Of a DNA stretch of 64,000 nt, positions 23,584 through 33,671 are shown piece after piece (position 1 is the first letter of the stretch; each line of letters starts with the position of its first letter). The translations under genes and the position numbers were made by a program. Under the pieces are notes generated by a model. The model was not told where the DNA came from. It ran no database searches and saw nothing but the letters and a program-made list of their open reading frames with translations. The stretch comes from Runella sp. CRIBMP. GTDB lineage: Bacteria > Bacteroidota > Bacteroidia > Cytophagales > Spirosomataceae. The DNA is taken from contig NZ_JAAAKZ010000015.1 in assembly GCF_009905605.1 (NCBI RefSeq), positions 62,001-126,000 on the forward strand. Direction: 5' to 3'.

Positions 23584-23656
23584 CTTACAGCAGCGTTGGC
23601 GGACGCTCGTTGGTAAGGAAAAAGAAAAACCCCGCAGAATGGCGGTTCTGACGGGG
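23584..23656 (+). promoter_or_regulatory. Leader RNA with two TGGCGG-hexaloop hairpins before the nrt operon
   Basis: Hairpin 1: outer CTTAC/GTAAG (23584-23588, 23613-23617), inner AGCGT/ACGCT (23592-23596, 23603-23607), loop TGGCGG (23597-23602). Hairpin 2: CCCCG-CAGAA (23630-23639), loop TGGCGG (23640-23645), TTCTG-a-CGGGG (23646-23656). The second ends 47 bases before the porin ATG. Read on the minus strand, hairpin 2 is followed by a T-rich run and could also act as an antisense terminator. Confidence 0.65.
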
Positions 23657-23703
23657 CTATTAGCAGTTTTAAATTAGGGATTAACTTAAAACATTACAAA
23701 TTT

Positions 23704-25248
23704 ATGAAAAAACCATTACACGTCAAGTGCTTTGGCGCGGTTCTTTTAATCTTTGCATTAAGCAAAACTACTCATGCGCAACTTTCGTTGCAAGGTCAAC
23801 TCCGAACACGAACTGAAATTAGGGACGGAGTAGGTAACCTTCCCAAATCGGGGGCAAAGCCTGCTGCCTTCACTTCCCAGCGCACCAGCCTTATCTTCGG
23901 CTACAAATGGGATCGTCTAACGTTTGGTGTAAACGTTCGGGATGTAAGGGTCTGGGGACAAGATGCTGCTTCTATCAATAACACCGACGGCTCAAAGTTA
24001 TTTTTGCACGAAGCTTGGGCCGAAGTGATTTTGGCCAACAGCGCCGATACTACCCTCAAATTCAAGGCATTAGACAACTTATCTCTTAAAATAGGACGTC
24101 AGGAATTAATCTATGACGATGTACGTTTGCTCGGCAATTTGGACTGGCTCCAGCAGGGGCGGCGGTTTGATATGGCCCTGCTCAAAGCTATGAAAAACGG
24201 CTGGCAAATCGACTTGGGCGCGGCCTTCAACCAAAATTCCGATGCCTTTGGCCGAGCGGGCACTTTCTATGCGGCAGGCAATGTCCCCGCCACGGTCGCC
24301 AATTCTAAAGGTGCTTTTGTGAGTATTCCAACCGATTTCATTCCGACTTCAGGCAAGGGCGGCGCTCCAGTGTTGGCATCTCCGCTCAGCACCAACGGCC
24401 AAAATCAAATGTTTAAATCCATGCAGATGCTGTACGTCAGCCGTAAATTTGGACAAACAAAATTCTCGGGGCTTTTCTTCAAAGACGATTTTCAGAAGTA
24501 CCGTATAGACAGCCTCGGTAGCACCGCCAACGGCGTAGTGTATGGCCGCCGGTACGACGTAGAGGGCGTTAATAGTCGCATTACTTACGGAGCCATGCTT
24601 ACTGGGTTGATCGGTAATGCTTCTTCAAAATTAGGTAAAATTGCTTGGCAGGCGTTTGCATACAAGCAGGGCGGCAAAAATCGCGACGGCCAAAGCCTGA
24701 GCGCCTATCACTACGGGGCCAACGTTTCTATTCAGAAAGGCAAATTCTCATTTGGGCCAGGTTATGAAGTACTTTCGGGCAACAACACCGTTTCGCCCGA
24801 CGGCAAGGACCACCGGTTTGACCCTCTGTACGGCACTCCGCACAAACACTGGGGCTACATGGATTATTTCTACGTAGGTACTGGCGCACCCGCTGGTGGT
24901 TTAGGAAATGCTTTCTTCAAGACAAAATACGTGGCTAATCCTAACCTATACTTTACCTTCGACATTCACAATTTTGCCTTGGCCAATGACATGAAAAACG
25001 GCTTGGACGCCGCAGGTGGCAAAATCAGCCGTCAGTTGGGCAACGAATTTGATTTTATCCTCAACTACAACCTCAATAAGTTTACCAACGTAGAATTGGG
25101 CTATTGCTACCTAAAAGGCTCCAACAGCCTCGAATATGGGAAATTGGGCACGATGGACAAAGCCAAACACGGTGCCAATTGGGCCTATTTGATGCTCAAT
25201 ATTCGCCCCGATTTCTTCTATACAAAACCCGTAGCGATTAAACAATAA
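23704..25248 (+). CDS. Outer-membrane porin, alginate-export (AlgE-like) family
   Basis: 514 residues with a signal peptide (MKKPLHVKCFGAVLLIFALSKTTHA, split here for length) and a beta-barrel that starts LSLQGQLRTRTEIRDG. Typical family features are the KIGRQELIYDDVRLLG stretch and a barrel ending with FTNVELGYCYLKGSNS and aromatic residues. Members are often found as outer-membrane channels in nitrate uptake clusters of Bacteroidota. As first gene of the nrt operon it probably brings nitrate across the outer membrane; this role is inferred from position. Confidence 0.8.
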   Translation: MKKPLHVKCFGAVLLIFALSKTTHAQLSLQGQLRTRTEIRDGVGNLPKSGAKPAAFTSQRTSLIFGYKWDRLTFGVNVRDVRVWGQDAASINNTDGSKLFLHEAWAEVILANSADTTLKFKALDNLSLKIGRQELIYDDVRLLGNLDWLQQGRRFDMALLKAMKNGWQIDLGAAFNQNSDAFGRAGTFYAAGNVPATVANSKGAFVSIPTDFIPTSGKGGAPVLASPLSTNGQNQMFKSMQMLYVSRKFGQTKFSGLFFKDDFQKYRIDSLGSTANGVVYGRRYDVEGVNSRITYGAMLTGLIGNASSKLGKIAWQAFAYKQGGKNRDGQSLSAYHYGANVSIQKGKFSFGPGYEVLSGNNTVSPDGKDHRFDPLYGTPHKHWGYMDYFYVGTGAPAGGLGNAFFKTKYVANPNLYFTFDIHNFALANDMKNGLDAAGGKISRQLGNEFDFILNYNLNKFTNVELGYCYLKGSNSLEYGKLGTMDKAKHGANWAYLMLNIRPDFFYTKPVAIKQ

Positions 25249-25260
25249 CTACGGCAGGAC

Positions 25261-25293
25261 AGACTTGCTAAGTTTCAAAAACTTGGCAAGTCT
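25261..25293 (+). repeat. Intra-operon hairpin, 15-bp stem
   Basis: Arms AGACTTGCTAAGTTT and AAACTTGGCAAGTCT (one G-T pair, 3-base loop) between the porin and nrtA genes. It may be a dispersed palindromic repeat that modulates expression between the porin and the ABC transporter. Confidence 0.75.
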
Positions 25294-25375
25294 TATAAAA
25301 TCACTTAATAAATTTCACCAAAAGCAATTTACGCGGCCAGTGGCCCAGCGTCTGCTCTTACAATGTCTTTATCCA

Positions 25376-26581
25376 ATGAAAACTACCTATAAAATTATTC
25401 TCGCGCCGTTGGCGGCCCTTATTTTGATGGCTGGAATGTCGATGCGCAAAGCGGTCTTGCCCCAAGTAAAATTAGGCTTTATTCCCCTCACCGACTGTGC
25501 CCCGCTGGTAGCCGCCAAAGAGTTGGGGTTCTTTCAGAAGTACGGCGTCGATGTGGTTCTTTCTAAAGAAGCCTCTTGGGCCAACATTCGCGATAAAATA
25601 CTCAACGGCGAACTCGACGGCGCGCATTGCCTCTTTGGGATGCCTTTCTCGGTCTACACCGGCTTGGGCGGAAAAGCAGGCTCCGAAATGCAGATTGCAA
25701 TGGTTTTGAACAACAACGGCCAAGGCATCACACTTTCCAAAGATTTTTGCGGATTGGTAGGGTTCAAAGAAATGAATAAAGTCGCCGCCGCCGTCAAGCA
25801 AGTACAAGCCCGCAAAGAAGTAACTTTTGCCATGACTTTTCCAGGCGGCACGCACGATATTTGGCTTCGCAACTGGATGGCCGCCGCAGGTATTAACCAA
25901 AAATCAGTGGGGATTATCACGATTCCGCCGCCGCAAATGGTGGCTAATATGCGCGTAGACAACATGGAGGGGTTCAGCGTAGGCGAACCTTGGAATGGAA
26001 TGGCAGCCGCCCAAAATATCGGCTTTACGGAGATTGCCAGTCAAGATATTTGGAAACACCACCCCGAAAAAGCGTTGGTTGTCAATAAGCAATTTGCCGC
26101 CAAAGAGCGCGAAAACCTCAAAAATGTCATGAAAGCCGTTTTGGAAGCCTGTCAGTGGCTCGACAACATGGGCAACCGCAAAAAAGCGGCGGGCTGGCTT
26201 TCCAAACCTTATTACGTCAACGCCGCTTTGCCCGTCATTGAAGCCCGTTTGCTAGGTTCCAACGATTTAGGTTGCGAATTGGGCGTTCAGAAATACAAAG
26301 ACGATTACATGACTTTTTACAATAAAGGTTTTGTCAACACGCCCCGCAAAGTACACGGAATGTGGTTTTTGGCGCAGTACGTTCGGTTCGGAATGTTGAA
26401 ATCCAACCCCGATTTTAAGGGCATTGCCGAAAAACTCATCTTGGACGACCTCTACGCCGAAGTAGCCCGCGAAGCCAAAGTCCCCGTCATGACCGACGAC
26501 ATGAAAGCTTTCAAAACCACTTACGATGTAATGTTTGACCCTGGCAACATTCCTGCGTATCTGGCTTCCGCAAAGAAATAA
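25376..26581 (+). CDS. nrtA: Nitrate ABC transporter, substrate-binding protein
   Basis: 401 residues from ATG 25376, which gives a signal peptide (MKTTYKIILAPLAALILMAG); the frame runs upstream to 25265 with no signal there. The NrtA/CmpA family is shown by VKLGFIPLTDCAPLVAAKELGFFQKYG, GELDGAHCLFGMPFS, TFPGGTHDIWLRNWMAAAGI and NMEGFSVGEPWNG. It binds nitrate (or nitrite, bicarbonate in CmpA) in the periplasm and delivers it to NrtB. No lipobox cysteine, so it is probably soluble or anchored by its N-terminus. Confidence 0.92.
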   Translation: MKTTYKIILAPLAALILMAGMSMRKAVLPQVKLGFIPLTDCAPLVAAKELGFFQKYGVDVVLSKEASWANIRDKILNGELDGAHCLFGMPFSVYTGLGGKAGSEMQIAMVLNNNGQGITLSKDFCGLVGFKEMNKVAAAVKQVQARKEVTFAMTFPGGTHDIWLRNWMAAAGINQKSVGIITIPPPQMVANMRVDNMEGFSVGEPWNGMAAAQNIGFTEIASQDIWKHHPEKALVVNKQFAAKERENLKNVMKAVLEACQWLDNMGNRKKAAGWLSKPYYVNAALPVIEARLLGSNDLGCELGVQKYKDDYMTFYNKGFVNTPRKVHGMWFLAQYVRFGMLKSNPDFKGIAEKLILDDLYAEVAREAKVPVMTDDMKAFKTTYDVMFDPGNIPAYLASAKK

Positions 26582-26622
26582 TCATGGTATGTAATTGAAT
26601 ATCAACCATCAAAGTTACGAAA

Positions 26623-27405
26623 ATGAAGAAATTACTTAATATACAAACCTACCTCCCATTGTTGTTTGGCATAGGAAGTGCGGTCATTTTAATCGGCGCT
26701 TGGTGGGGCATTTCCCTCCTTACCAACCGCGAAATCCCGTCGCCTCTGATGACTTGGTCGGTCTTTAATGAAATGCTCGCCACTCCTTTCTACGATTATG
26801 GGCCTAACGACAAAGGCATTGGAAATCAATTGATCAGCTCACTTATCCGCGTATTCAGCGGCTTTGGATTGGGCAGCCTCGTAGCCATTCCTCTTGGGTT
26901 GCTTATCGGATCCAGCAAAACGGCCTTCCGACTCATCAATCCGATTATCCAGATTTTGCGCCCAGTATCGCCGTTGGCGTGGTTTCCGTTGGGATTGTTG
27001 GCGTTCAAAGCCGCCGAGGGTGCAACGATTTTTATCATTTTTGTCACCAGCGTATGGCCTACATTAATCAATACTGCCTTTGGCGTGGCCTCAATTCCAC
27101 AAGACCATAAAAACGTGGCGAAGGCTTACGGCTTTTCTCGTTGGAAATACATCATCAAAGTCATCATCCCGTTTGCTTTACCGCACATTATCACAGGGTT
27201 ACGTCTAAGCATCGGCGTGGCGTGGATGGTGATCGTGGCGGGCGAAATGCTCTCTGGAGGCGTCGGAATTGGCTTTTTTGTGTGGGACAGTTGGAACGCG
27301 CTCAGCTTAGAGAAAATCCTCTCGGCCATCTTAATCATCGGCACGGTGGGATTACTACTCGACAAGGGCTTTGATTGGCTTCAAAAACGATTTGCATTTG
27401 CTTAA
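26623..27405 (+). CDS. nrtB: Nitrate ABC transporter, permease
   Basis: 260 residues with about six membrane segments. The EAA-type loop is VASIPQDHKNVAKAYGFSRWKYIIKVIIPFALP. Same family as NrtB/SsuC/TauC. It forms the inner-membrane channel for nitrate import with the ATPase encoded downstream. Confidence 0.92.
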   Translation: MKKLLNIQTYLPLLFGIGSAVILIGAWWGISLLTNREIPSPLMTWSVFNEMLATPFYDYGPNDKGIGNQLISSLIRVFSGFGLGSLVAIPLGLLIGSSKTAFRLINPIIQILRPVSPLAWFPLGLLAFKAAEGATIFIIFVTSVWPTLINTAFGVASIPQDHKNVAKAYGFSRWKYIIKVIIPFALPHIITGLRLSIGVAWMVIVAGEMLSGGVGIGFFVWDSWNALSLEKILSAILIIGTVGLLLDKGFDWLQKRFAFA

Positions 27406-27502
27406 TAAATGGTAGTTGGTGGTCAGTGACTGGTGCTCAGTAAATTACATTTCAAAAGTACCCTCACCAACCACACTCCACTATTCACTAACCACTCATA
27501 AC

Positions 27503-28360
27503 ATGACTCTCAATCCTATCTCCGCTCCCGTCGACTCCGCGAGTGAGTTTCATAAAATCCAATCACGCCCCGCTTCCATTGAAGTAAAAAACATCTCGGT
27601 GGCGTTCAAAACCCCCAAAGGCACGTTTACGGCCATCCAAGACATTGATTTAACCATTCAAAAAGGTGAAATCGTGGCACTTATCGGCCATTCTGGCTGT
27701 GGTAAATCCACGCTTATGGGCACGATTTCGGGCATGACCCAGCCGACAAGCGGCACGGTAATGGCCAATGGCAACCTCGTAAAAGGGCCTGGTCCCGACC
27801 GTGGTATTGTTTTCCAAAACTACTCTTTGCTGCCTTGGCTCAGCGTTTATCAAAACATTTACGAAGCCGTTGATTCTGTATTTAAGGGGAAAACATCGGC
27901 TGAAAAACGCGAAATCACCGAAGAAAACCTCAAAATGGTCAACCTTTGGCCGCACAAAGACAAGCTTCCGGGCCAACTTTCGGGCGGGATGAAACAGCGT
28001 GTCGCCATTGCGCGGGCGTTTGCCATCAACCCTAGCATTTTGCTGCTCGATGAGCCGTTTGGGGCGTTGGATGCGTTGACCAAAGGCTCCATGCACATTG
28101 AACTGCTCAAGCTCTGGAACCTTGACAACCGCAACAAAACTATTGTAATGGTAACGCACGACATCGAAGAAGCCATTTTTCTTTCCGACCGCGTGGTGGT
28201 CATGAACAATGGCCCCGCCGCCACCATCAAAGAAATAGTTGATGTACGGCTCCCCCGGCCCCGTAACAAAAAAGACATTGTCCATGACCCAGCCTACATG
28301 GAGATTCACGACCGACTAATGGGCTTATTGTTCGATAAGTTTTCGATTGAAGACGATTAA
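27503..28360 (+). CDS. nrtD: Nitrate ABC transporter, ATP-binding protein
   Basis: 285 residues from ATG 27503 (an earlier ATG at 27416 lies in low-complexity intergenic sequence). Walker A GHSGCGKST, signature LSGGMKQR, Walker B ILLLDEPFG and the H-loop VTHD are all intact. It lacks the substrate-binding-like C-terminal domain of NrtC, so it corresponds to NrtD. One ATPase gene suggests a homodimer. The operon ends with a hairpin at 28391. Confidence 0.92.
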   Translation: MTLNPISAPVDSASEFHKIQSRPASIEVKNISVAFKTPKGTFTAIQDIDLTIQKGEIVALIGHSGCGKSTLMGTISGMTQPTSGTVMANGNLVKGPGPDRGIVFQNYSLLPWLSVYQNIYEAVDSVFKGKTSAEKREITEENLKMVNLWPHKDKLPGQLSGGMKQRVAIARAFAINPSILLLDEPFGALDALTKGSMHIELLKLWNLDNRNKTIVMVTHDIEEAIFLSDRVVVMNNGPAATIKEIVDVRLPRPRNKKDIVHDPAYMEIHDRLMGLLFDKFSIEDD

Positions 28361-28390: not shown

Positions 28391-28430
28391 AAACCTGTCA
28401 GGACTTCAAAACCTGACAGGTTTTGCATTT
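28391..28430 (+). terminator. Terminator of the nrt operon
   Basis: 12-base arms AAACCTGTCAGG (28391-28402) and CCTGACAGGTTT (28412-28423) pair perfectly and are followed by a T-rich stretch. Confidence 0.8.
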
Positions 28431-28575: not shown

Positions 28576-28606
28576 TTTGAGTATACTCGTTTATTTTGTA
28601 CGTTTG
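28576..28606 (+). promoter_or_regulatory. narK promoter (TTTG-N19-TACGTTTG) with overlapping palindrome
   Basis: TTTG at 28576-28579, a spacer of 19, and TACGTTTG at 28599-28606 fit the Bacteroidota consensus exactly. The palindrome GAGTATACTC (28579-28588) overlaps the -33 element and may be an operator. TACTC at 28562-28566 is an extra half-site. Predicted start near 28613. Confidence 0.75.
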
Positions 28607-28615
28607 ATATACCAA

Positions 28616-28734
28616 ATCGGTGCAGCGTGGCGGCGCTCAACCGATGCAGGTATCCAAGTCCAAATCGCAGTCAGTGATCTGTAACAAGCCTTTTCTTTGG
28701 GAGGAAAAGGCGGGTGAAAATTTGTCACTGACTG
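28616..28734 (+). promoter_or_regulatory. Structured 5' leader of narK with TGGCGG hexaloop
   Basis: Hairpin 1: ATCGGT (28616-28621), AGCG (28624-28627), loop TGGCGG (28628-28633), CGCT (28634-28637), ACCGAT (28640-28645). Hairpin 2: CAGTCAGTGA (28668-28677) pairs with TCACTGACTG (28725-28734) and encloses GCCTTTTC/GAAAAGGC (28688-28695, 28704-28711). It begins about three bases after the predicted start of transcription and ends 80 bases before the ATG. Confidence 0.7.
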
Positions 28735-28813
28735 TGGTAGACGGCTTTCTACTTTTGCATCGCTTCACGCCTTTACGCTGGCTTTATGTTTTAAACTCAA
28801 ACAAGCAAGCGTC

Positions 28814-30118
28814 ATGGGTCAACCACCTAACAATCAACCCCTTCCTCAGCTAAACGTATTCAGTTTCAGCGGCGTCCAAATGCGTACGTTCCACATTACG
28901 TGGATGACTTTTTTCGTCTGTTTCTTTGGTTGGTTTGGCATAGCGCCCCTGATGCCCGCCATTCGGGCCGATTTGGGATTGACCAAGCCTCAGGTAGGAA
29001 ACACCATCATTGCGGCGGTATCAGCCACTATTTTTGCCCGCCTGATCATCGGAAAGCTCTGCGACAGTTGGGGCCCGCGCAAAACTTACACGGCCTTGTT
29101 GGTGGTTGGCTCATTGCCCGTCATGCTTGTCGGTTTGGCGCATGATTATACATCCTTTTTACTTTTCCGTTTGGCCATCGGCGTTATTGGAGCGTCGTTT
29201 GTCATTACGCAATTTCATACTTCGGCCATGTTTGCCCCGAGCATCAAAGGAACGGCCAATGCCGTAGCTGGCGGCTGGGGTAACCTTGGCGGTGGCATCA
29301 CGCAGTTGGCCATGCCACTCATTATGGCTACCATCATCGGATTTGGGTTTGTCAAAGCCGATGCGTGGCGTTTGGCCATGATTTTTCCAGGGCTGATGAT
29401 GTTGGTAATGGCCTTTATTTACTGGAAATACACAAAAGATACCCCCGCTGGCAACTACGACGAAATCAACCGCACCGCTGCTACCAAATCAAGCGTACCG
29501 TTTTGGCAAGCCTGCGCCGACGTGCGCGTCTGGGCCTTGGCGATTGCGTATGCCTGCTGCTTTGGCATGGAAATTACCTTCGATGGCGTAGCAGCGCTTT
29601 ATTTCTTTGACAACTTCCACATGGAAGAAACTGAAGCGGGTTTCTGGGCCATGCTGTTTGGGTTTATGAATATTTTTGCCCGCGCCGTGGGCGGAATTGT
29701 GGCCGATAAGATAGGTCAAAAATACGGTATGCGGGGCAAAGGCATCCTGCTGGCTTCTATGTTATTGCTGGAAGGATTAGGAATTTTACTTTTTGCGCAA
29801 TCAGGAAATCTGACGATGGCCATTGTTTCGATGCTCACTTTTGCGATGTTTTTGAAAATGGCCAACGGCGGCACGTATGCCATCGTACCGTTTATCAATC
29901 CCAAAGCTGTCGGGGTAATATCGGGCGTAGTCGGTGCAGGTGGCAACGTGGGAGGAATGTTAATGGGCTTCTTGTTTAAATCCCAGTCCATTTCTTACGG
30001 ACAAGCATTTATGTACATCGGCGGTATCGTCGCGGTGGTGGGCTTGTTGTTGTTTTTGATTAATTTCGGTAGAACGGTGACCGTTGAACAGGTAGAAACT
30101 GAGCTACAAACGGCGTAA
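28814..30118 (+). CDS. narK: NarK-type nitrate/nitrite transporter (MFS)
   Basis: 434 residues with 12 membrane segments. The nitrate signature GGWGNLGGGITQLAMP is present, as is the family start FSFSGVQMRTFHITWMTFFVCFFGWFGIAPLMP. The MFS loop motif ARLIIGKLCDSWGPRKTY lies between helices 2 and 3. It probably imports nitrate or exchanges nitrate and nitrite across the inner membrane, in addition to the ABC system. Followed after 31 bases by the reductase gene, so both are one transcript. Confidence 0.92.
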   Translation: MGQPPNNQPLPQLNVFSFSGVQMRTFHITWMTFFVCFFGWFGIAPLMPAIRADLGLTKPQVGNTIIAAVSATIFARLIIGKLCDSWGPRKTYTALLVVGSLPVMLVGLAHDYTSFLLFRLAIGVIGASFVITQFHTSAMFAPSIKGTANAVAGGWGNLGGGITQLAMPLIMATIIGFGFVKADAWRLAMIFPGLMMLVMAFIYWKYTKDTPAGNYDEINRTAATKSSVPFWQACADVRVWALAIAYACCFGMEITFDGVAALYFFDNFHMEETEAGFWAMLFGFMNIFARAVGGIVADKIGQKYGMRGKGILLASMLLLEGLGILLFAQSGNLTMAIVSMLTFAMFLKMANGGTYAIVPFINPKAVGVISGVVGAGGNVGGMLMGFLFKSQSISYGQAFMYIGGIVAVVGLLLFLINFGRTVTVEQVETELQTA

Positions 30119-30149: not shown

Positions 30150-33100
30150 ATGAAAGGAACAACGGCACATAAAACCACTTGCTGCTACTGCGGCGTCGGC
30201 TGCGGGGTAGTGGTTCAGAAAACTCGTAACGGACATATTTCCGTGGAGGGCGACCCTGACCACCCATCGAGCAAAGGGATGCTTTGTTCTAAAGGGCGAA
30301 ACTTGCACTATACCGTCATGGATACGACAGACCGATTGTTGTATCCTCAAATGCGCCGCAATCGTCAAGCCCCTTTGCAAAGGGTTACGTGGGACACGGC
30401 ACTGGAGAGGGCAGCGGCGGTTTTCAAAACGTTTATCGAAAAATACGGTCCCGACTCGGTAGGATTTTACGCATCTGGCCAGTGCTTAACCGAAGAATAT
30501 TACGTAGTCAATAAGCTTATCAAAGGTTTTATCGGTTCAAATAACCTCGACACCAACTCGCGCCTTTGCATGTCGTCGGCGGTGGTTGGATACAAAATGG
30601 CCTTGGGTGAAGACTCCGTACCGTGTAGCTACGAAGACATCGAATTGGCGGATTGTTTTCTGATTGCGGGCTCCAATCCTGCGTGGAACCACCCCATTGT
30701 ATTTCGACGCATGGAGGCACACAAAGCCGCCAACCCACGGGTTAAATTTATCGTGGTCGACCCTCGCCGCACAGATACCGCTCGCATGGCCGACCTTCAC
30801 CTTCAAATCAAGCCCGGAACCGACGTGGTGTTGCTCAATGCCATCGCCAAAGGGCTGATTTCGAGAGGATACATTGACGAGCATTTTATCAAAAACCACA
30901 CCGAAGGCTTCGATACCTACCGCTTACAGGTCAGCGAGCGTGACATGCGCGAAGCGGCCAAAATTTGCGGCATCAGCCTCCACGACATTCACCAAGCCGT
31001 AGAATACATTGGAAAATCCAAGGGATTTATCTCCATGTGGGCCATGGGTTTCAACCAAAGTGTGATTGGAGTCAACAAAAATTTGGCGTTACTAAACCTT
31101 CATTTGATTACGGGGCACATCGGAAAAGCAGGTTCAGGGCCCTTTTCATTGACTGGTCAGCCCAACGCCATGGGTGGTCGGGAAGTAGGTGGGCTGTCGA
31201 ATCTCCTGCCTGCGCACCGTAACTTAGCCGACCCCGCTCACCGGCAGGAAGTAGCCGATTTTTGGGTAGTTCCTGCGCTAAACCCTAAACCTGGATTGAC
31301 CGCTACCGAAATGTTTGAGGCGCTCAAAGATGGCCGCATGAAAGCCATTTGGATCATGTGTACCAATCCGCTGGTGAGCCTGCCCAACGCGCACCTCATA
31401 GAAGAAGCCCTAAAGGCCGCCAAGTTTGTGGTGGTGCAGGATGTTTCCAATCGTTCGGATACGGTTGCTTACGCGGACCTAGTACTCCCCGCCGCCGCGT
31501 GGGGCGAAAAAACGGGGACCATGACCAACTCAGAGCGGCGGGTTTCGTACCTCAGTCAGTTCAACGAACCCGTAGGAGAAGCCCTCCCCGATAGCGAAAT
31601 CATCGTCAAATTTGCCCATAAAATGGGTTTTGGTCACGCATTTAATTACCGAAATACGTCAGAAATTTACGACGAGCACGTTCGCCTTACCAAAGGAACC
31701 AACGTAGATATCAGCGGGCTCTCGCACGAGCGGCTACGCACCCAAGGTACCCTGCAATGGCCCGTACCAACGGCAGAATCTAACGGCACACCGCGCCTGT
31801 TTGCCGATCATCAATTTTATACCCCTTCTCATAAAGCCCAAATCAAAACCATTCCCGACGGTAATCAATCCGAACCGCTCAGCGATGATTTCCCATTGGT
31901 GTTGACCACGGGCCGTATTCGTGACCAATGGCACACGATGACCAAAACGGGTAGGGTTAATAAACTGAATCAGCACATCCCGAAGGCTTTTTTAGAAATA
32001 AACCCCGCCGATGCTCACGAACGCGGCATCAAAGAAGGCGACATTGTCACCGTTCAAAATCCACGCGGACAGGTGCAAGTACCCGCCAAAATCACGGAGG
32101 ATATTCGGCAAGGAGTGGTGTTTTTACCCATGCACTGGGGAAAAATAATTCAAAGTACGGCCGCGCGCGCCAACAACATTACGAGCGATTTGGTTGACCC
32201 TTATTCCAAAGAACCTGATTTTAAATATGCGGCGGTTGAAGTAAAGAAATTCAAAAAAATCAGGGAGCGTATCATCGTCGTGGGGGCGGGAGCCGCAGCG
32301 TATAAATTCGTGACGGCCCACCGCCAGCATAACCTTACCGACGAAATTCACGTATTCAGCAAAGAGCCGTTTGCTTTTTATAACCGCGTGATGCTGCCCG
32401 ACTATATCAGCGGCGCCATGCGTTGGGAGAAATTGCTCAAAATGCAGGACGACGAGCGGGCCTTGGTTCATCTCTACGAGGGCCTCAGCATTGAGCACAT
32501 TGACCGTACTCAAAAAACCGTTGTTGACTCAAAAGGTAATCTCCATCCCTACGACCGCCTCGTCATCGCCACGGGCAGTAGGTCGGCCATGCCCAAAGAT
32601 TATGATGTATCCTTAGAGGGCGTTTTTACGATGCGTACGCGGCAAGATGCCGACGGTTTAACGCGTCATTTGGGCATTGGTCAGGCAAAACACATCGTCA
32701 TCGTGGGCGGCGGTTTATTGGGGCTAGAGTTGGCGGCTTCGTTGCGCCAGCTAGGCCATCAGGCTACCGTTATTCACAGAGCTTCGCGCTTGATGAACCG
32801 TCAATTGGACGCCACGGCGAGTACCCTTCTGCACGAAGAACTCAAAGACCGGAGCATTGATATTTATTACAACGACGAAGTCAAATATTTAGCAGGCCAC
32901 CATAACCAAGTCGGTAGCGTTCGCCTCACCTCAGGCCAAGTCATTGACTGTAATGCCGTTGTACTAACGATTGGCACGACACCCAACGTCGAAATCGCCC
33001 GTAAAGCGGGTTTGGATGTACAACGCGGAGTGGTAGTGAATGCCTATCTCCAAACCTCCGACCCAGCCATTTTTGCCATCGGCGAGGTGGCCGAATTTGA

Positions 33101-33671
33101 GGGACAGCAGTTTGGCATTACGGCTGCCGCTGAGGAGCAGGCCGAAGCATTATGTGCCTATTTCAACGGCGATATTCAAAGTTATTATCGGCCGACCATT
33201 TCTATGAATATTCTGAAAATGGAAGGCCTAGATTTATGCTCGTTGGGCATGACCGAAATCCCCGCCAACGGAGCTGGTGCCGAATACGAAGAAGTCCTGT
33301 TTATGGACAAACAAAAACGATATTACAAAAAATGTATCATTCACGGCGATAAGCTCGTCGGGGCCATTTTGTTGGGAGATAAATCAGAATTTACGGAATT
33401 CAAATCATTGATTCAGCACCAAACCGAACTTTCGGAAAAAAGGCTCAAATTGCTTCGAAGCGGCAAATCCGCCCCTGCACTCAAAGGAAAAACGGTCTGT
33501 TCATGCAACAACGTTGGCGACGGCAACCTGCGCGACGCCATTGCGGGCGGTTGTACCGATTTTCAGACGCTTTGTCAGCAAACGGGGGCTGGAACGGGCT
33601 GCGGAAGTTGTAAACCTGAGGTGAAAGCAATGCTTGAAAGGAGAAGTGAGAAGGCAGAAGCAAGGAAGTAG
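30150..33671 (+). CDS. nasC: Assimilatory nitrate reductase fused to NAD(P)H/FAD module and BFD [2Fe-2S] domain
   Basis: 1173 residues in one chain. Residues 1-700 are the molybdopterin catalytic subunit: the [4Fe-4S] site CCYCGVGC plus C46, molybdenum ligand C140 in NSRLCMSSAVVGYKM, and the MGD block GQPNAMGGREVGG. From about 705 an FAD/NAD oxidoreductase begins (RIIVVGAGAAAY), with a second Rossmann motif IVIVGGGLLGLELAASL near 850. This part is like the first half of NirB. A BFD-like domain with CSCNNVGDG...C...TGCGSC closes the chain (about 1115-1160). So electrons from NAD(P)H could reach the Mo site without a separate electron-transfer subunit. The last residues are encoded in a purine-rich tract. 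Confidence 0.92.
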   Translation: MKGTTAHKTTCCYCGVGCGVVVQKTRNGHISVEGDPDHPSSKGMLCSKGRNLHYTVMDTTDRLLYPQMRRNRQAPLQRVTWDTALERAAAVFKTFIEKYGPDSVGFYASGQCLTEEYYVVNKLIKGFIGSNNLDTNSRLCMSSAVVGYKMALGEDSVPCSYEDIELADCFLIAGSNPAWNHPIVFRRMEAHKAANPRVKFIVVDPRRTDTARMADLHLQIKPGTDVVLLNAIAKGLISRGYIDEHFIKNHTEGFDTYRLQVSERDMREAAKICGISLHDIHQAVEYIGKSKGFISMWAMGFNQSVIGVNKNLALLNLHLITGHIGKAGSGPFSLTGQPNAMGGREVGGLSNLLPAHRNLADPAHRQEVADFWVVPALNPKPGLTATEMFEALKDGRMKAIWIMCTNPLVSLPNAHLIEEALKAAKFVVVQDVSNRSDTVAYADLVLPAAAWGEKTGTMTNSERRVSYLSQFNEPVGEALPDSEIIVKFAHKMGFGHAFNYRNTSEIYDEHVRLTKGTNVDISGLSHERLRTQGTLQWPVPTAESNGTPRLFADHQFYTPSHKAQIKTIPDGNQSEPLSDDFPLVLTTGRIRDQWHTMTKTGRVNKLNQHIPKAFLEINPADAHERGIKEGDIVTVQNPRGQVQVPAKITEDIRQGVVFLPMHWGKIIQSTAARANNITSDLVDPYSKEPDFKYAAVEVKKFKKIRERIIVVGAGAAAYKFVTAHRQHNLTDEIHVFSKEPFAFYNRVMLPDYISGAMRWEKLLKMQDDERALVHLYEGLSIEHIDRTQKTVVDSKGNLHPYDRLVIATGSRSAMPKDYDVSLEGVFTMRTRQDADGLTRHLGIGQAKHIVIVGGGLLGLELAASLRQLGHQATVIHRASRLMNRQLDATASTLLHEELKDRSIDIYYNDEVKYLAGHHNQVGSVRLTSGQVIDCNAVVLTIGTTPNVEIARKAGLDVQRGVVVNAYLQTSDPAIFAIGEVAEFEGQQFGITAAAEEQAEALCAYFNGDIQSYYRPTISMNILKMEGLDLCSLGMTEIPANGAGAEYEEVLFMDKQKRYYKKCIIHGDKLVGAILLGDKSEFTEFKSLIQHQTELSEKRLKLLRSGKSAPALKGKTVCSCNNVGDGNLRDAIAGGCTDFQTLCQQTGAGTGCGSCKPEVKAMLERRSEKAEARK

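Follow-up and report, generated by a model that had tools for sequence, protein, structure and literature searches.

The nitrate assimilation locus

The window, a 64,000-nucleotide stretch of a Runella sp. CRIBMP contig, carries two consecutive transcription units for nitrate uptake and reduction (Table 1). The first comprises the gene of an outer-membrane porin and nrtABC and ends at an intrinsic terminator, and the second, separate unit contains narK and the gene of a fused assimilatory nitrate reductase, which confirms the two-operon arrangement read in the preliminary description. The porin shares 99% identity with that of R. aurantiaca, and narK has matches at E ≤ 0.001 in 168 of 200 genomes of the family. 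The promoter call upstream of narK relies on the Bacteroidetes consensus TTTG / TAnnTTTG, and the start site is likewise predicted. In Runella, a short (A)GGGATT element is found immediately 5' of the starts of the porin gene, nirB and the SUMT gene, the latter two on contig C10.

Table 1. Features of the nitrate locus in the window; hexaloops are given in square brackets.
Feature	Position	Strand	Sequence or basis
Hairpin 1, porin leader	23584-23617	+	CTTAC-AGC-AGCGT [TGGCGG] ACGCT-CGTTG-GTAAG; sequence and fold
Hexaloop of hairpin 1	23597-23602	+	TGGCGG
Hairpin 2, porin leader, after an A-rich run	23630-23656	+	CCCCG-CAGAA [TGGCGG] TTCTG-A-CGGGG; sequence and fold
Hexaloop of hairpin 2	23640-23645	+	TGGCGG
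Short element between hairpin 2 and porin start	23673-23685	+	ATTAGGGATTAAC; by eye
Outer-membrane porin, alginate_export family	23704-25248	+	Pfam PF13372
nrtA, nrtB, nrtC (nitrate ABC transporter)	25265-28360	+	Pfam NMT1_2, BPD_transp_1, ABC_tran
Intrinsic terminator, end of porin-nrt unit	28407-28425	+	Terminator scan
Bacteroidetes-type narK promoter, predicted	28576-28606	+	TTTG (28576-28579) - 19 nt - TACGTTTG (28599-28606)
narK leader hairpin, at predicted 5' end	28610-28652	+	TACC-AA-ATCGGT-GC-AGCG [TGGCGG] CGCT-CA-ACCGAT-GCA-GGTA
Hexaloop of narK hairpin	28628-28633	+	TGGCGG
narK leader segment, competing long-range fold	28640-28775	+	CGATGCA directly after hairpin with TGCATCG near 28757-28763; prediction
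narK-type MFS nitrate transporter	28814-30118	+	Pfam MFS_1
Assimilatory nitrate reductase, NAD(P)H-reductase part fused	30150-33671	+	Pfam Molybdopterin, Pyr_redox_2, Fer2_BFD

Three hexaloop hairpins in the window

Three hairpins with the hexaloop TGGCGG precede these genes, two before the porin-nrt unit and one before narK, and all of them are on the coding strand. Every coordinate first given for them was found to be right, and their stems differ. The core of the narK hairpin spans 28616-28645, with ATCGGT/ACCGAT as outer and AGCG/CGCT as inner stem, and four added pairs (TACC/GGTA) extend it to 28610-28652.

The word TGGCGG occurs 66 times on both strands of the window, against 37 occurrences expected. 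When one hairpin score, stem plus bulge, was applied to all 66 sites, hairpin 2 ranked first, the narK hairpin second and hairpin 1 third, with scores of 24.5, 22 and 19, and the next sites reached 14.5, 12.5 and 6.5. An equal or better hexaloop-hairpin score is attained at just 0.01-0.1% of all window positions. Because the leader sites are exactly the three best among the 66 words, the three hairpins are not due to chance. Hairpin 1 is kept in R. limosa and R. zeae with altered stems (CTTAT../GTAAG and CTTCC AATAG../CTATT..GGAAG), and a counterpart of hairpin 2 is present in most of 90 porin leaders from the family.

Distribution among nitrate and nitrite genes

Porin leaders were collected from 90 genomes of the family, and 67 of them contain a sense-strand hairpin whose loop is TGGCGG, TGGGGG or closely similar. 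The Spirosoma-type hairpin reads GCCGATCC-GGTG [TGGGGG] CACC-TTT-GGATCGGC, that of Flectobacillus CCCGAAT-GAGA [TGGGGG] TCTC-G-ATTCGGG, and that of Emticicia CCGACTT-GACA [TGGGGG] TGTC-A-AAGTCGG. Beyond Cytophagales, Niastella and Longitalea share the porin hairpin CCCCGG-CAGA [TGGCAG] TCTG-A-CCGGGG, the porin hairpins of Ferruginibacter have the loops GTGGAA and GTGGAG, and porin leaders of Sphingobacteriales show a variant GGAGGTCGCA loop. In Mucilaginibacter and Desertivirga (L201, L206, L212, L213), the place of the hairpin and its outer stems are retained and the loop region is GGAGGTCGCA-like; a Shine-Dalgarno-like GGAGGT is present in the same four porin leaders.

In Flectobacillus, Arcicella and their relatives, narK is preceded by one to three hairpin copies where it has a spacer of its own, and nrtA by one copy. 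The stems of these narK and nrtA hairpins have no sequence kinship to those of the porin hairpins. Flectobacillus carries hairpins within operons, before narK, porin and nrtA. A single hairpin near the predicted transcript 5' end is found at nirB of Arsenicibacter, Spirosoma and Larkinella, and a fourth TGGCGG hairpin of Runella precedes the SUMT gene of siroheme synthesis on another contig; in R. limosa the SUMT stem is ACCAAA-A-GAG / CTC-TTTGGT. No hairpin was found upstream of nirB in Runella, nor did a scan of twelve loci find one upstream of the nitrate reductase gene; at porin or narK it is absent from some genomes (parts of g13, g23 and g32).

The hairpin element is real and widespread before the nitrate and nitrite genes of many Bacteroidetes. 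Its assignment to Cytophagales nitrate genes was thus correct for that order and too narrow in scope, as other orders of the phylum have the hairpin too, and the gene set, first given as the porin and narK leaders, also includes nrtA, SUMT and nirB. Absence from the leaders of homologous nitrate operons had been named as an observation against the element, and hairpins with covarying stems are present there.

Several further observations concern these leaders. In L071, L076 and L120, an extra hairpin with the hexaloop of the lineage lies over the first porin codons, for example AAAGCAAG-TGGGGG-CTTGCTTTT, which reads KSKWGLA; the element may overlap coding sequence in these three. In the narK leaders L241-L251 and L255, the UGGGGG hairpin has another small hairpin directly 5' of it, CCCTTCAAC-N-GTTGAAAA. 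The sequence AAAACTCTGTTA recurs in Flectobacillus, Arcicella and Pseudarcicella, shortly 3' of the porin hairpin and, in narK and nrtA, at the initial codons (L237:7093, L237:8811, L240, L131-L136 and L209, the last with two copies). Matches resembling the hairpin at -400 to -590 of the Spirosoma porin gene were set aside, as they lie inside the SUMT coding sequence. L238 is not counted as a case of a narK hairpin that covers the start codon, since the ATG in question is not conserved.

Conserved pairing, strand and genomic specificity

Covariation was analysed in 84 distinct leader sites, which were picked by the word TGG[CG]GG and by position, with pairing ignored. Over six flanking position pairs, 78.8% of the cells are paired, against 42.0 ± 1.9% with the 3' letters shuffled, a control that keeps the relatedness between the sequences, and 33-38% with slid partners, a control that removes it and still leaves a very large gap. 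Both sides changed in 245 cells where 91 were expected, five or six pair types occur at every position, and purine-pyrimidine pairs make up 65 of the 74 paired closing positions (66 counting one G-U). A hairpin score of at least 17 is reached by 71% of 142 leader sites, compared with 0.28% after shuffling of the flanks and 2.1% for the same words in coding sequence.

Hairpins on the mRNA strand outnumber those on the antisense strand by 126 to 1. This strand preference, 126 of 127, and the covariation speak for an element that acts as RNA and against a DNA-binding palindrome with conserved half-sites. Pairing conserved through compensatory changes, a fixed strand and one class of genes, which are among the general properties of a cis-acting leader RNA, are found here.

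A scatter of the hairpins over unrelated regions, also named beforehand as evidence against the element, was not seen with the covariance model R1, which in 16 whole genomes matched mainly the porin leader (seven porin leaders and two weak matches). The two extra matches look accidental, one being located in coding sequence and the other in a terminator with a T-run. Scoring with R1 was limited to the 150 best candidates of each genome, and Runella's own narK and porin copies escaped it, as weak members elsewhere in the genomes may have done; genome-wide uniqueness is therefore well supported for the Spirosoma and Flectobacillus types and less so for the Runella type.

Loop identity

The loop is near-constant. 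It follows UGGSGG, or more broadly UGGNGG and, looser still, UGGNRR, and depending on lineage UGGCAG, UGGGGA and UUGGAG also occur. UGGCGG is the loop of Runella, S. oryzae and Larkinella soli, UGGGGG that of Emticicia and Flectobacillus, UUGGAG that of Lacihabitans, and UGGCAG that of L142. The constant TGGCGG loop of the preliminary description is accordingly what Runella has of a UGGNRR loop that differs between lineages. At nirB of Spirosoma and Larkinella, the loop (UGGGAG, UGGGGA) is unlike the porin loop (UGGGGG). Copies within one leader share their loop, and lineages differ, as would be expected of a loop that is read by a trans-acting partner. The six bases may instead form a tetraloop closed by a U-G pair.

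Position and leader folding

At narK and nrtA, most hairpins have their loop about 46-103 nt upstream of the start codon; the distance is about 70-85 nt at nirB and about 45 nt at SUMT. In Spirosoma-type porin leaders (L073-L150, e.g. L083), about 210-330 nt separate the hairpin from the porin start. These leaders contain a five-codon mini-ORF, ATG-AAA-AAA-NNN-NNN-stop (MKKxx-stop), with AAAGAAA just upstream. It begins a median of 66 nt after the loop, and all 38 cases found have a stop as codon 6 (37 TAA, 1 TGA); the mini-ORF is possibly a leader minigene that is translated. Overall, the hairpin can be placed at the transcript 5' end, in mid-leader, or over the first codons (L071, L076, L120), and this varying distance to the gene fits no single translational geometry. 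A terminator scan of the window leaders found none in the stretch from hairpin to start codon; the start of the porin coding sequence contains one weak terminator-like match.

In all seven Runella narK leaders, the hairpin is the minimum free energy fold of the first 60 nt, and in all seven the predicted minimum free energy fold of the full-length leader is without it and lower by 4-10 kcal/mol. The long-range fold persists despite a leader length of 204 versus 158 nt and a much-changed middle. Two mutually exclusive predicted folds of the region 28610-28813 of the window are thus conserved across seven Runella genomes. The folding predictions suggest that the narK hairpin would form first and then compete with the more stable long-range fold, and a bound partner could fix the leader in one of the two states.

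Alternative explanations

The main rivals to a control of translation are transcription readthrough and a small RNA. In the former, protein-dependent antitermination, for example by a NusG paralogue or a Rho antagonist, would use the 5' hairpin to load the factor on RNA polymerase, so that long nas operons stay transcribed. The position of the hairpin at the predicted 5' end of Runella narK, and of nirB in Spirosoma and relatives, is consistent with such loading. One loading site would suffice, yet hairpins recur before second and third genes in Flectobacillus and near start codons, and this explanation is considered unlikely. LoaP/UpxY-type processive antitermination, of which UpxY is a Bacteroidetes factor, likewise combines a leader hairpin with long operons, but no NusG paralogue was seen adjoining the locus, and the hairpins repeat gene by gene within operons.

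A trans-acting sRNA with a C-rich seed could pair with the loops, and the downstream AAAACUCUGUUA of Flectobacillus and Arcicella would then be a second pairing site. The loops are G-rich and change between lineages jointly in several copies, and AAAACTCTGTTA is found after the hairpins of porin, narK and nrtA alike, as this explanation would have it. On the other side, no candidate sRNA was found via AAAACTCTGTTA, and the 12-mer is no commoner genome-wide than a reversed control, which leaves the sRNA improbable.

Antitermination by an ANTAR protein that binds hexaloop hairpins and blocks a terminator is the mechanism by which NasR and NasT act in Proteobacteria, and the known nitrate leaders with hexaloop hairpins are ANTAR systems of that phylum. 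The leaders described here resemble these targets, as well as eut leaders, in their hexaloop hairpins, which occur in nitrate assimilation leaders and often in tandem, with the loops about 35-43 nt apart; in the ANTAR systems, it is the loop that is recognised. ANTAR-target loops, however, require A1 and G4. The mismatch initially reported for the window loops is borne out, all three having U at position 1 and C at position 4, and it extends to the aligned leader sites, in which position 1 is U in 84 of 84, these having been picked by TGG[CG]GG, and position 4 is C or G. Loop variants found without that word also lack A1, weak cases excepted. Further differences from ANTAR targets are the frequent single copies, hairpins inside operons and near start codons, and, in the window leaders, the lack of any intrinsic terminator with a U-run that overlaps the hairpin ahead of the start codon. 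A search for ANTAR domains gave 0 of 39 genomes above the cut-off, with the controls likewise without a match. Regulation of this type is very unlikely.

CsrA/RsmA sites also lie in hairpins near start codons with loop-specific recognition by CsrA, and the loops of some lineages contain GGA (UUGGAG, GUGGAA), but the UGGCGG of Runella and the UGGGGG of Spirosoma are without GGA. CsrA was found in 0 of 19 genomes of relatives, with E. coli, B. subtilis and T. maritima as positive controls.

The hairpin could also end antisense or upstream transcripts as an intrinsic terminator, with the U-run on the opposite strand. At least four A within the 5 nt before the stem are indeed present in 50 of 73 porin hairpins, but the A-run is found in only 6 of 19 narK and 1 of 9 nrtA hairpins, and a terminator needs no constant loop, so that this function is hardly tenable. 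A REP-like or mobile extragenic repeat, or chance hairpins, could explain three copies that share the genome-common word TGGCGG, but this is refuted by the site ranking, the score controls, the covariation, which is above all controls, and the whole-genome model search with its matches mainly in the porin leader, and the stems are unrelated.

A candidate nitrate/nitrite assimilation regulon

With a probability of about 0.7, the hairpins represent a new cis-acting leader-RNA element that, together with a trans-acting reader of its loop, constitutes a nitrate/nitrite assimilation regulon. The initial proposal of a new leader element or of a non-ANTAR regulator reading the loop is supported by the covarying homologous leaders, by the specificity, and by the deviation of the loop from the ANTAR rule. 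At the gathering score, neither the window nor any of nine related loci has an Rfam match, and at the E-value level both window leaders gave chance matches only; a BLAST search of plasmids with the narK leader found no match, and the openly accessible literature yielded no description of such a motif. Like Rfam families and metabolite riboswitches, the element is part of a structured 5' leader, but it is a single small hairpin with no aptamer.

The 5' leaders of porin, narK, nrtA, SUMT and nirB contain one to three copies, each with a UGGNRR hexaloop that sits on an R-Y closing pair, in most cases above a small bulge on the 3' side. In the proposed mechanism, a trans-acting partner, for which an RNA-binding protein is the likeliest candidate, would recognise this loop and so join otherwise separate transcripts and parts of operons in a single post-initiation regulon. 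The effect would be exerted on translation initiation, or on leader folding and decay, and not through an intrinsic terminator, and the signal is presumably nitrate or nitrogen status. Control of translation initiation is favoured because the scan found no terminator between hairpin and start codon in the window leaders, the hairpins recur gene by gene, and most of them lie about 45-105 nt before a start codon. Several observations count against the proposed mechanism, namely the varying distance to the gene, the genomes that have porin or narK but no hairpin there, the deviating nirB loops of Spirosoma and Larkinella, the weak terminator-like match at the porin start, and the lack of a constantly linked RNA-binding gene. 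A more specific version, to which slightly less than an even chance is given, is an RNA-based nitrogen regulon of the Bacteroidetes' own, in which a new protein, neither ANTAR nor CsrA, reads UGGNRR, has shifted its specificity together with its sites, and controls translation gene by gene.

A separate hexaloop element of this pathway outside the Proteobacteria, backed by covariation, would mean that one regulatory task had been solved twice independently, and it would point to a loop-reading regulator in a phylum with few known post-transcriptional regulators. As the sites are short, present in large number and coded by lineage, the RNA itself could be used as bait for the partner, and the loop changes among genera would provide natural specificity mutants.

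A check of the linked genes for an RNA-binding regulator found none that is constantly linked. A NarX/NarL-like two-component pair, consisting of a PilJ-domain histidine kinase and a LuxR-type response regulator, is encoded beside nirBD in most relatives (L228-L239) and is likely to be the transcriptional nitrate sensor of the pathway. Similar kinase and regulator genes lie by nirBD in Runella (L320:7766-12762, contig C10), the domain assignments being those of the relatives.
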